Part shown: positions 7,802 through 25,058 of the stretch, in pieces
Numbering within the stretch: position 1 is the first letter of the stretch
How the letters are laid out: every line of letters begins with the position of its first letter
Assembly (NCBI GenBank): GCA_020832225.1
Contig: JAFIFA010000086.1
Coordinates: 1 to 39,101, forward strand
Direction: 5' to 3'
DNA from: Balneolaceae bacterium
Lineage (GTDB): Bacteria; Bacteroidota; Rhodothermia; Balneolales; Balneolaceae
Length of the DNA stretch: 39,101 bases
Notes under the pieces: model-generated
Told to the model about the DNA's origin: nothing
The model's database searches: none
What the model saw: the letters and a program-made list of their open reading frames with translations, nothing else
Program-made: the position numbers and the translations under genes

Positions 7802-9109
7802 TCATGAATCGGATGAGCAGAGCTTACGCAAATGTGTCAGCCCGGGGTTGCCGGGCGAGCCAAGATGGGTGTACTTTTTCATCACGCTTTCGGGGCGAAT
7901 ATGAGAAGCGAGTTCGGGATTTTCAGCAATCTTTCGGTAGGCTTCGCGGAACGGGATGTTTTGATCCTTTACCATTTCATAGGCGGCTTCGGCGGCAAAA
8001 AGATCGGAGCTGCACGCTTTTTTCAGGTTCTCGGGAATGGGTTCCATGTTTTGAATCAGGATAGCGGAAGCTTCAAGAAGACGGGAGGTCTTTTCAAACG
8101 CTTTCAGAACCGGCTCTTTTGTTAGCTGAAGGTCTCTGTGGTAGCCACTTCCGAGGTTGACTGTAGCCGACTGAAGCGTGGCGGCATATCCGGCCATTTC
8201 CATCTGCCCACCCCTGATCAGTTCCGCCACATCGGGATTCTTCTTCTGCGGCATAATGGATGACCCCGTGCAGACCACATCATCCAGGGCAAAAAAGTGT
8301 TCGGGTTCTCCGCTATATCGGATCACATCGGAGGCAAACCGGTTCAGAACCGCAGTGACTCCACCCAAATACTGCACCAGCTGCAGTTCAATCCAACCCC
8401 GCGAGAGTTGAGAGGTGGTTGAGCAGACCAGGGGTTTGTCAAAACCCTGCTCTTGAGCCTCTTTCTCCCGATCGATATCAATCGTGGACCCAAAACCTGC
8501 CGCTGAACCAAGTGGAGAACGGTTGATGAGAGACGTTACACCGGAGGCAGCTTCAGCCTGGATGAGCAGCATTTCAGCATACCCACCCGCCCAGAGCCCC
8601 ACGCTGCTCAGCATCGCTTTTCGCGTATGGGTATAGCCGGGCATGGGCGTCTGCTCGTACTCTTCCGCAAGGTCGATCAGCAGCTTTGCGCACTGCCGGG
8701 TTTGCTGAAGGATGTTTCCGAGCTGCTCCTTTTCATAGAGCCTCATTGCGGTAAGCACCTGATCGTTCCTTGATCGGCCGGTGTGAATCTTTTTGCCCAG
8801 ATCACCCACTTTCTGGATCAGCGCATTCTCGATGGCGGTATGCATATCCTCATCACTCACAGTGATCTCAAACTCACCCGCTTTCCAGGTTTCGAGAATC
8901 TCGTCGAGGGCCGAATGAAGCCGGTCCATCTCCTCTTCACTCAGAATACCGGCGCGCTGAATCGCCCTCGCGTGAACCTTTGATGCACGGATGTCGTAAG
9001 GGACAAGAGCCTGATCGAGCCTGTAATCATCACCAACCGTAAAAGCCTCCACCTTCTTTGCGGTTTCGGATGCGGTGTCTGTGGAGGACTTTTGCCAGAG
9101 TTTGGACAT
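7802..9109 (-). CDS. argH: argininosuccinate lyase
   Basis: A 435-residue protein that cleaves argininosuccinate to arginine and fumarate, the last step of arginine synthesis. It has the fumarase/aspartase superfamily signature GSSIMPQKKNPDVAEL with the flexible catalytic loop. N-terminal conserved blocks include DEDMHTAIENAL and HTGRSRNDQ, which bind substrate, and MPGYTHTRKA follows further on. The length is slightly under the usual 450-470. It is the third gene of the argF-argG-argH series on the minus strand, 261 bp after argG. A heptad repeat lies immediately in front of its start codon, where no Shine-Dalgarno sequence is visible. Confidence 0.96.
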   Translation of the reverse strand: MSKLWQKSSTDTASETAKKVEAFTVGDDYRLDQALVPYDIRASKVHARAIQRAGILSEEEMDRLHSALDEILETWKAGEFEITVSDEDMHTAIENALIQKVGDLGKKIHTGRSRNDQVLTAMRLYEKEQLGNILQQTRQCAKLLIDLAEEYEQTPMPGYTHTRKAMLSSVGLWAGGYAEMLLIQAEAASGVTSLINRSPLGSAAGFGSTIDIDREKEAQEQGFDKPLVCSTTSQLSRGWIELQLVQYLGGVTAVLNRFASDVIRYSGEPEHFFALDDVVCTGSSIMPQKKNPDVAELIRGGQMEMAGYAATLQSATVNLGSGYHRDLQLTKEPVLKAFEKTSRLLEASAILIQNMEPIPENLKKACSSDLFAAEAAYEMVKDQNIPFREAYRKIAENPELASHIRPESVMKKYTHLGSPGNPGLTHLRKLCSSDS

Positions 9110-9370: not shown

Positions 9371-10657
9371 TTATATCTGCGTTGACCCCGAGAGGGCTGC
9401 CTTGCCGGCTGCTTTCTTTAGCTGGTAGGCGGTCTTCTGCGGGAGATTCCAGAGTTCAATAAAACCTGCTGATGCATTCTGATTGAATGAGGCCGACTTG
9501 TTAAAGGTAGCCAGATTTTCATCAAAGAGTGAATAAGGAGACGAGAGTGAAACCACATCGCAGTTCCCCTTGTAGAGTTTGACCGTGACTTCGCCGGTCA
9601 CTTTTTTGTTCTGCTCATTGATGTAGGCCCGGATATTATCCATCACCGGCTCATAGTACTTCGCACCATAGATGAGGTAGGCCCATTTCTGATCCATCAT
9701 CCCTTTCAGTTCGTTCTCTTCCCTGGTGGAAACAAGCTGCTCCAGATTTTTGTGAGACTGAATCAGAATATGCGCAGCCGGATTTTCATAGACGCCCCGA
9801 ACCTTGAGTCCCACAACCCGGTCTTCAATCAGATGAAACACCCCAACGGCGTGTTTCCCCCCAATCTCATTCAGGAGCAGAATGATATCCTTTTTGTCGT
9901 ATGGAGCGCCATTCAGGCTAACAGGCTCACCCTTTTCAAAACCGATTTTCACCAATTCAGGCTCATCGGGGGCCTGCTGTGGTGTGTTGGCCCACTTCAG
10001 AATGTTTTCAAGCGGCGGAATCAGTTCAGGGTTCTCAATCTCCCCGCCTTCACCGGTGTTGGCCCACATGTTCTCGTCGTAGGAGTAGGGGCTCTTCTGT
10101 GTCTGCTCAACCGGGATGCCGTTTTTAATGGCATAGCTGATCTGTTCATCCCGTCCCATGCTCCACTCCCGAACCGGTGCAATTATCTTAAGCTCCGGAT
10201 TGAGTGTGGTGATATAGCTCTCAAACCGAACCTGATCGTTTCCTTTCCCGGTACAGCCGTGGGCGATCACCTGGCAGCCAAATTCAGCCGCAAACTGAAC
10301 GGCGAGCTGTGAGATCATCACCCTGCCCAGCGGACATCCCAGCGCGTAACCGCCCTGATAATCGGCATTTGCTTTAACCGCTTCACTGCAGAGTTCAGCG
10401 AATTCATCCTTGGCATCATAGACGATCGCTTCCTTGGCGCCAAGCTTGAGTGCTTTCTGCTTGATGGCATCCAGGTCATCGGCGGTCTGCCCAATGTTGA
10501 CGGTGAGGGCGATCACTTCACAATCGTACTCTTCCTGAATCCATTTAAGCATGATGCTGGTATCCAGACCGCCCGAATAGAGGAGCAGACAGGTATCAAA
10601 GGTTCCTTTTTCAGCTTCGTGTGACGCGACTTTTTTATAGGTGGTTTCGTTTTTCAT
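9371..10657 (-). CDS. argG: argininosuccinate synthase
   Basis: A 428-residue protein. It joins citrulline and aspartate with ATP to make argininosuccinate. The N-terminal P-loop-like ATP site of the PP-ATPase fold is present (LLYSGGLDTSIMLKW), with further conserved blocks (GCTGKGNDQVRFE, IIAPVREW, SPYSYDENMWANTGEGGE) that bind citrulline and aspartate. The length is near the longer ArgG type. The ATG at 10657 is preferred to the in-frame GTG at 10669 because AGGGGGTGAG lies 7 bp upstream of the ATG and overlaps the GTG. It is downstream of argF and upstream of argH on the same strand, so it falls under the leader-peptide attenuator described here. Confidence 0.96.
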   Translation of the reverse strand: MKNETTYKKVASHEAEKGTFDTCLLLYSGGLDTSIMLKWIQEEYDCEVIALTVNIGQTADDLDAIKQKALKLGAKEAIVYDAKDEFAELCSEAVKANADYQGGYALGCPLGRVMISQLAVQFAAEFGCQVIAHGCTGKGNDQVRFESYITTLNPELKIIAPVREWSMGRDEQISYAIKNGIPVEQTQKSPYSYDENMWANTGEGGEIENPELIPPLENILKWANTPQQAPDEPELVKIGFEKGEPVSLNGAPYDKKDIILLLNEIGGKHAVGVFHLIEDRVVGLKVRGVYENPAAHILIQSHKNLEQLVSTREENELKGMMDQKWAYLIYGAKYYEPVMDNIRAYINEQNKKVTGEVTVKLYKGNCDVVSLSSPYSLFDENLATFNKSASFNQNASAGFIELWNLPQKTAYQLKKAAGKAALSGSTQI

Positions 10658-10676
10658 AATTGGACTCACCCCCTGT

Positions 10677-10793: not shown

Positions 10794-11771
10794 TCAAGAG
10801 GGGATTTTATGGGCACCATTCATTGATTTACTTTCCGGTATATGTTCATCTGCAAGTATCGTGGCAAAAACACCCTTCGATACAATCATTCTGTTCTTGG
10901 CCTGCTCATAGACCCATGAGTTCTGGTGATCAATCACCTCATCAGTAACCTCAACACCGCGGTGGGCGGGCAGGCAGTGCATAAAACCCGCCTCAGATTT
11001 TGCCTGTGAAAAGAGCTTCTCGTTCACCTGATAGGGCTTAAAGTGCTTCATCTTCTCATCGTAGAGGTGCTCTTCACCCATGGAGATAAAGGTGTCGGTG
11101 TAGATCACATCGGCATCGTAAGTGGCCTTATGAGCATCCTCGGTCTGAATGAACTCACCGCCATGCTCAATAGCTAAAAGGGAGAAGTAACCGAGCTGCT
11201 CGCTGTTGAAGGAGTAGGTTGAGGGTCCGGCAAACTTAACGGTATGGCCAAACTTCAATCCTATTTCAGTGAGCGAGAAAGCGACATTGTTGGCGTCGCC
11301 CACATAGGTGATAGTCACTTTTTCATCCTTGCCGAACTTCTGTTGAATGGTATAGAGATCGGCGAGCGCCTGCATTGGGTGGTGCTGGTTGCAGAGTGCA
11401 TTCACAATCGGGATGGTGCCATAATCAGCCAGTTTTTTTAGCGTGCCGTGCGAATAGACCCGGGCAAAGACGGCATCGCACCATTGTGAGACATTCATCA
11501 TCGCGTCTTTGAGGGACTCCCGGCTGGTGAAGGGAACGGCCTTGCTGCTTGAAAAGATGAGGTCGGGACTGATCTCGATCACATCACCGCCGAGGTGGTT
11601 GATGGCTACTTCGGTTCCTACCTTTGTTCTCAAAGAGGGTTTTTCAAAGACAAAAGCGACATTCTTGCCTTTGAGTACCGGCTCCGGGGAACTGTTCAGC
11701 TGCTCGCTCAGGTCGAAAATGGACTGGATGGTTTCAGGCTCAAGTGAGCCGATGGTTAACAGATGATTCAT
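10794..11771 (-). CDS. argF: ornithine carbamoyltransferase
   Basis: A 325-residue protein that makes citrulline from ornithine and carbamoyl phosphate. It has the carbamoyl-phosphate loop in the form FEKPSLRTK (the S-x-R-T-R/K motif), HPMQALADL, the ornithine-specific DTFISMGEE segment and HCLPAHRGVEV with the catalytic cysteine. These favour ornithine over aspartate or N-acetylornithine as substrate. It is the first structural gene of the arg operon. A 168-bp untranslated stretch separates it from the leader peptide and contains the attenuator. No strong Shine-Dalgarno sequence precedes its ATG. Confidence 0.94.
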   Translation of the reverse strand: MNHLLTIGSLEPETIQSIFDLSEQLNSSPEPVLKGKNVAFVFEKPSLRTKVGTEVAINHLGGDVIEISPDLIFSSSKAVPFTSRESLKDAMMNVSQWCDAVFARVYSHGTLKKLADYGTIPIVNALCNQHHPMQALADLYTIQQKFGKDEKVTITYVGDANNVAFSLTEIGLKFGHTVKFAGPSTYSFNSEQLGYFSLLAIEHGGEFIQTEDAHKATYDADVIYTDTFISMGEEHLYDEKMKHFKPYQVNEKLFSQAKSEAGFMHCLPAHRGVEVTDEVIDHQNSWVYEQAKNRMIVSKGVFATILADEHIPESKSMNGAHKIPS

Positions 11772-11865
11772 AATAATCGCAGAGTTGGTTTTAAAAGGGA
11801 GTCTATAGTTGAAATCGGAGGGAGGGGTCGGCAGGACTGGAATACAGCTCAGAGATCTGAGTGTA

Positions 11866-11901
11866 TAAAAAAAGCCCGCTCAAGGTTTGTTGAGCGGGCT
11901 T
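11866..11901 (-). terminator. attenuator terminator of the arg operon
   Basis: A perfect 12-bp stem in the minus-strand RNA, AAGCCCGCTCAA pairing with TTGAGCGGGCTT, with a six-base loop and an uninterrupted run of seven U (plus-strand A at 11867-11873). It lies between the leader peptide and argF, not after a gene. Its 5' arm (from 11901 leftward) overlaps the antiterminator pairing region, so its formation should be conditional. Confidence 0.92.
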
Positions 11902-11950
11902 GTGATAAATCCTGGTAGTTTACACTACACACACTGCTATCACACGCCCG
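11895..11950 (-). promoter_or_regulatory. antiterminator pairing of the arg attenuator
   Basis: On the minus strand, CGGGCGTGTGATA (11950-11938), which spans the leader stop codon, is complementary at 12 of 13 positions to TATCACAAGCCCG (11907-11895), which includes the first seven bases of the terminator stem. The two structures are mutually exclusive. A competing small hairpin, CGCCC-TTC-GGGCG (11957-11945), ties the left arm to the last Arg codons and would be opened by a ribosome stalled earlier on them. A further ACACACAC/GTGTGTGT pairing (11986-11994 with 11927-11935) could enclose it in untranslated RNA. Confidence 0.85.
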
Positions 11951-12005
11951 AAGGGCGGCGACGGCGACGAAGGGAAAGAGTTGTTGTGTGTGTGATTAAT
12001 TTCAT
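11940..12005 (-). CDS. arginine leader peptide of the argFGH operon
   Basis: A 21-codon frame. It begins MKLITHTTTLSL, then has five consecutive arginine codons (CGT CGC CGT CGC CGC, 11969-11955), then PSGV and a TGA at 11942-11940. It is followed by an antiterminator arm and an intrinsic terminator ahead of argF. In classical attenuation, scarcity of the charged tRNA stalls the ribosome at the repeated codons, frees the antiterminator arm and lets transcription continue. Abundance lets the ribosome reach the stop codon, cover that arm and permit termination. The gene reads toward argF and diverges from the HsdR-N-like gene, whose ATG is 86 bp away. No strong Shine-Dalgarno sequence is present. 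The name argL would describe it, but I do not know it as an established symbol here. Confidence 0.9.
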   Translation of the reverse strand: MKLITHTTTLSLRRRRRPSGV

Positions 12006-12091
12006 GACTTGTAATCTCGGGCCTTGAGCAGAAAGATCCAAATCTTTTTTTGAATGGTGATCGGCATATCGCTTTTCCCTATTTTCAGTCT

Positions 12092-24284: not shown

Positions 24285-25058
24285 TCAGATCTGATTATCT
24301 TCCACAATCACGCTGCTGCATGTGAGACCGGCCTCTGCTTTGGCGAGTTCAGATTGATCAATCACAATCAGATCATAACCGCGCCTGGCGAGCCACTCTG
24401 CAGTGTATGGAAAGGCTGTGGTTGTGAGGGCAAATTTGTCGCGCCTCATCACATTGGTGCCATACGGTTCATCGGGGTGAACCGGTTCGCAATGAATGCC
24501 TGGGAAATGAGCAGGTGATAGCCATTTGGGATTGATAAGCATGAGATCATCTTCAATCCTGGCAACGGCGGTTTTGAGGTGGAGACAGTGACGCACCGGA
24601 ATTCCCGAAACCCGATACCCAAGCGGACGCATGATCTCATCCACCTGACGAACAGCTTCACCATTAGAGCGTTTAGAGAGCCCGATGAAAATATGCTTCC
24701 CCAATACAAAAACATCTCCGCCATCAAGAGTGGCAGGAGCTTTAATAAAACTCAGATCCCGGTAATCCTGCAGAACCTTTGCCATCGATTCAGTTTCCGG
24801 TCGTCTTGATTCTGCACCGGGCCGGGTAATGATTGCCCGTTCAGGAAATACAACGGCTGTGTCCTCTACAAATACACCATCGGGCAGATCGGGTTTCTTT
24901 GGGAGCAGTCTGATCGTGTACCCCATCTTCTCAAGGGCATTTTCATAGACACGGTGCTGTTCTTTTGCCAGATGGATCTCGATCGGTTTACGGTCAAGAT
25001 ACGTTAATTCACACTCGGCAAGTTTTGGACTGATTGGACGGGTGATTGCAACAGGCAT
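24285..25058 (-). CDS. dimethylarginine dimethylaminohydrolase-like amidinohydrolase
   Basis: A 257-residue protein of the guanidino-group-modifying superfamily with a pentein fold. Catalytic elements are visible: FVEDTAVVF with Asp66, LDGGDV (111-116), His160 in HCLHLKT, and the nucleophile Cys247 in GLTCSSVIV near the C terminus. This pattern and length fit DDAH, which converts methylated arginines to citrulline plus methylamines. Citrulline could enter the argG step encoded elsewhere in the window, but that link is inference and a plain arginine- or homologous-guanidine-hydrolysing activity is possible. It is upstream of glpK on the same strand with a 210-bp gap. Confidence 0.85.
   Translation of the reverse strand: MPVAITRPISPKLAECELTYLDRKPIEIHLAKEQHRVYENALEKMGYTIRLLPKKPDLPDGVFVEDTAVVFPERAIITRPGAESRRPETESMAKVLQDYRDLSFIKAPATLDGGDVFVLGKHIFIGLSKRSNGEAVRQVDEIMRPLGYRVSGIPVRHCLHLKTAVARIEDDLMLINPKWLSPAHFPGIHCEPVHPDEPYGTNVMRRDKFALTTTAFPYTAEWLARRGYDLIVIDQSELAKAEAGLTCSSVIVEDNQI

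Follow-up and report, generated by a model that had tools for sequence, protein, structure and literature searches.

A putative arginine-sensing transcription attenuator ahead of argFGH in Balneolaceae, with related leaders before argG across the class Rhodothermia

Introduction

We propose that the argF-argG-argH operon of a Balneolaceae bacterium is controlled by ribosome-mediated transcription attenuation of the classical kind, with charged tRNA-Arg as the signal sensed, an assignment that we consider highly probable, even though no RNA, ribosome or expression data are available for it. The element occupies the minus strand from position 12005 to position 11866 of the window (the entire stretch of 39,101 nucleotides that was analysed), where direct reading of the sequence reveals a leader ORF, an anti-antiterminator hairpin, an antiterminator and an intrinsic terminator, followed by argF, argG and argH. 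The features characteristic of attenuators are met by a run of codons for one amino acid, a terminator, a coevolving and mutually exclusive antiterminator, an occupancy logic (in a model only) and downstream genes that match the codon run.

The leader element and the genes that follow it

The features are as follows, with the basis for each given in brackets.

12039..12042, minus strand: the TTTG of a -33-like promoter element, located 34-37 nt ahead of the leader ATG (recognised by eye from the Bacteroidota promoter consensus, which is general knowledge; an inference)
11940..12005, minus strand: leader peptide ORF MKLITHTTTLSLRRRRRPSGV, 21 codons and a stop (sequence; kept in 25/25 family leaders examined)
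11986..11993, minus strand: P1 5' strand ACACACAC, in the early leader codons (MFE fold; cognate-pairing test)
11955..11969, minus strand: five tandem Arg codons, CGT CGC CGT CGC CGC, the proposed sensor (sequence, run-frequency counts, peptide conservation)
11953..11957, minus strand: P2 5' strand CGCCC, starting in the last Arg codon and reaching the Pro codon; anti-antiterminator (MFE fold; near-invariant pairs)
11938..11950, minus strand: antiterminator 5' arm CGGGCGTGTGATA, which extends over the leader stop codon (sequence; cognate-pairing test, 0/20,000)
11945..11949, minus strand: P2 3' strand GGGCG, common to the antiterminator 5' arm (MFE fold; near-invariant pairs)
11927..11934, minus strand: P1 3' strand GUGUGUGU, past the leader stop (MFE fold; cognate-pairing test)
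11915..11928, minus strand: P3, a small hairpin GUAG...CUAC within the antiterminator loop (sequences and fold; no statistical test)
11908..11914, minus strand: P5 5' strand CAGGAUU, directly before the antiterminator 3' arm (cognate and shuffle tests)
11895..11907, minus strand: antiterminator 3' arm TATCACAAGCCCG, which shares bases with the terminator 5' arm (sequence; cognate-pairing test)
11867..11901, minus strand: intrinsic terminator, with a 12-bp stem formed by AAGCCCGCTCAA (11901-11890) and TTGAGCGGGCTT (11883-11872) and seven T at 11873-11867, two of them within the stem (sequence, fold)
11832..11838, minus strand: P5 3' strand AGUCCUG, between the terminator and argF (cognate and shuffle tests)
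10794..11771, minus strand: argF, ornithine carbamoyltransferase (TIGR00658, 308 bits, over cut-off)
9371..10669, minus strand: argG, argininosuccinate synthase (PRK00509, 486 bits, and TIGR00032, 452 bits, over cut-off)
7802..9109, minus strand: argH, argininosuccinate lyase (TIGR00838, 294 bits, over cut-off)

According to the curated models, the three genes make arginine, the amino acid encoded by the leader run. A dimethylargininase (DDAH)-like gene (24285-25058, minus strand; below the curated cut-off) is also found in the window.

A sequence-only reading had placed a 21-codon frame at 12005-11940, with the five Arg codons at 11969-11955, and a 13-nt arm at the leader stop (11950-11938) pairing at 12 of 13 positions with 11907-11895, and in both cases the sequence, read directly, agrees. 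Of the terminator it had drawn at 11901-11866, the 12-bp stem and the seven T stand, and the end base does not, the T run stopping at 11867 and position 11866 being an A, so that all of its coordinates are right within one base. Three helices are absent from that reading: P1 (ACACAC/GUGUGU), which joins early leader codons to the RNA beyond the stop, the P2 hairpin (CGCCC/GGGCG), which pairs the antiterminator arm with the Arg codons, and P5 (CAGGAUU/AGUCCUG). For the 140-nt leader, the folding energy is -49.4 kcal/mol (z = -6.04 versus dinucleotide shuffles). Shuffling predicts 0.06 occurrences of four tandem CGY codons in the window, and the only two matches observed are overlapping registers of the single run in the leader. 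Five tandem CGY codons occur twice in the 3.37-Mb genome, in the leader and within a 115-aa frame that we take to be ribosomal protein L20; the latter run, being inside a ribosomal protein gene, was ruled out as another leader.

Conservation within the family

Among the 92 Balneolaceae genomes surveyed, about 28 (that of the window included) possess a close argF homologue (identity of at least 58%), and the named relatives whose argF is 66-78% identical are mostly Balneolaceae MAGs, Rhodohalobacter sulfatireducens among these. When the count is restricted to the 25 argF loci (that of the window included) with a contig long enough upstream, an Arg leader with an intrinsic terminator is observed at 25/25, within 150-270 nt before argF and with the terminator at the same position in all of them; the element has thus survived a test that had been set for its refutation, namely a lack of conservation of the Arg run or of the pairing arms in relatives. 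The leaders, 19-23 aa in length, carry an unbroken run of four or five Arg codons, after which P-x-G-V or S-G-V usually comes. Across the 24 distinct leader peptides, four of the Arg and one Gly never vary, unlike the other residues, and the most conserved part of the family element is the Arg codons plus the arms. A covariance model built from 22 family leaders, from which P1 was omitted because MAFFT shifted the P1 columns, recovers the family leaders upstream of argF, independently of argF itself, with E values of 1e-22 to 1e-33, and no further convincing site was found with it in the genome of the window. Matches in four genomes (G025, G042, G029 and G061; E 1e-6 to 1e-4) were inspected and, as no Arg leader was seen there, treated as false positives.

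Two genomes deserve separate mention. One (G038:C2 and G038:C17) contains the argF locus with its leader twice, with identical scores, representing a duplication or an assembly artefact. The other, G043, encodes neither argF nor argG and possesses an orphan leader (G043:C17, about 50651-50786; L056, L184), a leader-like MKFYGNILLMHTRRRRCLLGM with a weaker terminator, flanked by the same neighbours as the window locus: a SusC-like gene to one side, and restriction-subunit-like and aminopeptidase-like genes to the other. This genome appears to have lost its arginine genes, with a putative decaying switch left behind, and an orphan leader after such a clean loss of the operon represents a natural experiment.

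Coevolution of the pairing arms and the proposed mechanism

For the antiterminator, P1 and P5, hybridisation of the arms of each species with the cognate partner was compared to hybridisation with the partner of every other species, and in all three cases the cognate mean surpasses every permutation (0/20,000, family leaders), the permutation tests including no correction for shared ancestry. The pairing arms coevolve, compensatory changes in relatives having been proposed as a check by the sequence-only reading. One example is presented by the most divergent leaders (G038 and G074), in which the arm is changed to GGGCGAAATAC and its partner is changed to match; at two loci (L016 and L017) the cognate antiterminators are weaker than the non-cognate ones.

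In the mechanism that we propose, in which stalling in response to Arg-tRNA and read-through are inferred, a leader ribosome would, when arginine is plentiful, pass the Arg codons and reach the stop codon inside the antiterminator arm, masking the arm, so that the terminator would form and transcription would end near 11867. When arginine is scarce, the ribosome would stall on the Arg run and melt the CGCCC/GGGCG hairpin, the arm would stay free, and the free arm GGGCGUGUGAUA would capture UAUCACAAGCCC before the 3' half of the terminator exists, the polymerase continuing into argF-argG-argH. If the leader is not translated, P1 and P2 would be expected to sequester the arm, and the terminator would form.

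The occupancy logic was modelled with a partition function in which the ribosome footprint is masked, for the nascent transcript just before the terminator 3' half. The antiterminator pairs predicted number 11.7 with the ribosome stalled at the first Arg codon, 3.2 with no ribosome and 0.0 with the ribosome at the stop, and thus the earlier inference, that a stalled ribosome frees the arm and a ribosome at the stop covers it, is reproduced in this model, though only there. When the full transcript is folded at equilibrium, the terminator wins even with a stalled ribosome for nearly all sequences, and antitermination must therefore be kinetic. In the enterobacterial attenuators, antitermination is likewise decided kinetically.

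The additional helix P5 is recognised in 18 genomes of three genera, where a AAAGGACUU-type segment is present directly before the antiterminator 3' arm, in a consistent register and covarying with a partner segment located 23-47 nt past the terminator, mostly about 60 nt before argF. As the MAFFT alignment lost the register of this helix, P5 was judged by the cognate/non-cognate and shuffle tests and not by formal pair counting; single loci are weak, the combined shuffle p is 1e-6, and the cognate test is passed. P5 crosses the antiterminator and can form on read-through RNA only.

Arginine leaders before argG across the class

The covariance model led, in three further families of the order, to loci before the same argF operon or before a different, argG operon, and we therefore surveyed the regions upstream of argG across the class (GTDB Rhodothermia), accepting a leader ORF if a stretch of eight codons in it included four or more for Arg and if it ended shortly before a strong terminator preceding argG. 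Such a leader with a terminator is present at 36 of the 45 distinct argG loci outside the family of the window, the other nine missing the criteria, so that the search that had been suggested before argF or argG of relatives, for Arg-codon frames with a terminator, is positive at both the family argF and the class argG loci, and the Bacteroidota-like taxon originally inferred can be refined to Balneolaceae and Rhodothermia. Compared to dinucleotide shuffles, the argG leaders are significant (p <= 0.05) at 33/39 testable loci, with a combined p of 2e-37, and their antiterminators average -20.9 kcal/mol for cognate versus -16.0 kcal/mol for non-cognate pairings (0/20,000 permutations), examples being GUGGAACCGGCGC with GCGCCGGUUCC and UGAAGAUUGUGUC with GGCAGAAUCUUC. 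No comparable leader-terminator pair was found before argG at 20 loci of other Bacteroidota families (0/20), nor was an Arg leader found in the Balneolaceae genomes that possess a different argG operon (0/20; L108-L127), in which ArgR is also missing. Two loci of the same order (L069 in G101 and L072 in G100) were rejected as Arg leaders, their codons being for Trp: directly before a trpE-like gene, each has a terminator and a leader peptide in which three Trp codons stand in a row, and these we interpret as putative trp attenuation.

Outside the family the leader peptides differ (RRRRFRRR..EDCV, RRRRRITRY and TRRVKPPRRRK, for example), Arg richness being their only common trait, and the choice of Arg codons varies by clade (CGC/CGT versus CGA/CGT) with Arg retained, pointing to Arg rather than to one nucleotide string. 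These differences also bear on nascent-peptide arrest, an improbable alternative, in which a poly-Arg peptide, perhaps with free arginine as a ligand, would stall the ribosome via the exit tunnel, and not through uncharged tRNA-Arg. The fungal arginine attenuator peptide provides a precedent, Arg-rich stretches are able to slow ribosomes, and RRRRPxGV is indeed conserved among the family leaders; however, RNA pairing constrains the PxGV codons, no such peptide is shared beyond the family, and arrest by high arginine would be of the wrong sign, since in the masking model the antiterminator is freed by a ribosome that has stalled on the Arg run. Still harder to sustain is a constitutive terminator or processing site next to a chance or unrelated Arg-rich small protein, with no regulation by arginine: while the conserved features are known from sequence alone, with no expression data to exclude it, it has to contend with pairing arms that coevolve and with an Arg run and a terminator that are kept across many families and in two operon contexts.

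Distribution of ArgR

The ArgR C-terminal domain (PF02863) was detected in none of the 92 family genomes and in one of the 245 genomes of the class, while 8 of 14 control genomes were positive in the same search. The sole ArgR of the class (L185, G153:C181) is encoded directly upstream of argG of that genome, with no terminator there. Membership in an ArgR/AhrC regulon, which requires an ArgR protein in the genome, is thus not met in the family.

Start of transcription

In nearly all of the 25 family leaders, inspection by eye shows a TTTG or TTGC box approximately 36 nt ahead of the leader ATG, and the promoter-like motif of the window precedes the leader start and is not situated downstream of 11866. 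In other families of the class, a TTGACA-type promoter-like motif ends 6-13 nt before the leader start (14/18 at p <= 0.05 versus shuffles, combined p 1e-15, the in-frame choice of starts inflating these values somewhat). With promoter-like motifs so near the leader start, the leader RNA would begin close to the AUG, and we infer, from these motifs only, that transcription may start close to the leader ATG and that the leader RNAs may be near-leaderless. Enterobacterial leader RNAs are not known to start close to the leader AUG. Leaderless transcripts make up only about 4-6% of mapped mRNAs in the two Bacteroidota species for which figures were available.

Implications and comparison with known systems

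If the proposed attenuator is real, it would extend classical attenuation to the sensing of arginine, in a lineage nearly devoid of the usual arginine repressor, and would account for the control of arginine synthesis in much of Rhodothermia. A broader scenario, of an ancient attenuator that replaced ArgR across the class, served two types of arginine operon, employed near-leaderless RNA with the ribosome loading on the emerging AUG, and gained in one branch a P5 pseudoknot restricted to read-through RNA, is advanced as a tentative one, about which we remain somewhat more doubtful than confident. The many diverged copies make this RNA switch testable in detail, the near-leaderless start included.

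In other phyla, arginine biosynthesis is controlled through ArgR/AhrC repression and Arg T-boxes; in contrast, Rhodothermia are nearly without ArgR, and the window has no T-box match. An arginine metabolite-binding riboswitch or a T-box with an incidental small ORF, to which a structured 5' RNA and a terminator ahead of an amino-acid operon would also conform, we consider very unlikely, as Rfam gives no match at the gathering threshold, T-box and riboswitches included, and as there is no conserved ligand pocket or T-box element, the Arg codons and arms being the most conserved part. Relaxed Rfam thresholds yielded nothing convincing either, the known leader models scoring far below their thresholds (Trp_leader 22.2 versus 41 bits, Leu 22.1 versus 50, Thr 14.1 versus 55).

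Arginine is known to be sensed by leader peptides elsewhere. One example is orf34 of Salmonella speF, in which arginine is reported by a ribosome that pauses at a pair of adjacent Arg codons, but whose targets are Rho termination, decay by RNase G and the translation of ornithine decarboxylase, and not an intrinsic terminator before arginine synthesis genes (PMC6386406). Another example is rbfL of S. aureus, which senses arginine limitation via Arg codons and, unlike the Balneolaceae leader, blocks a downstream ribosome-binding site and controls a biofilm regulator (PMC13009471). The uORFC-8-2 cysS motif of Rhodobacterales, a Cys-codon leader with a terminator found computationally, for which ribosome-mediated attenuation was inferred, is alike in combining a codon-run leader with a terminator, but for another amino acid, gene and taxon (PMC8632094). 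Closest in taxonomy, clues to leader-peptide attenuation were reported for amino-acid operons of Flavobacterium psychrophilum, of the same phylum, with neither the amino acids nor the mechanism detailed in the accessible part of that report (PMC9723704). The initial impression that an Arg leader is little described in Bacteroidota-like genomes holds in that no arginine case was found in the literature searched, and needs amending in that, judging by the same part, leader-peptide attenuation had already been proposed in Bacteroidota (PMC9723704). In Actinobacteria, no conserved RNA elements were reported before arginine operons. The same literature yielded no attenuator of this type for arginine biosynthesis in any bacterium, though an earlier listing elsewhere is not excluded.

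Ribosome-mediated attenuation is a known mechanism, and what may be new is its specificity for arginine, for which there is no Rfam family, along with possible variant features. The enterobacterial his, thr, leu, ilv, phe and trp attenuators combine tandem regulatory codons, a stop near the 2:3 arm, an antiterminator/terminator pair and a biosynthetic operon. The Balneolaceae Arg leader follows the same overall design (that of RF00513, Trp_leader, for example), and differs from it in the Arg codons, in the taxon (Balneolaceae and Rhodothermia), in the promoter-like motif near the leader start and in the extra helix P5.
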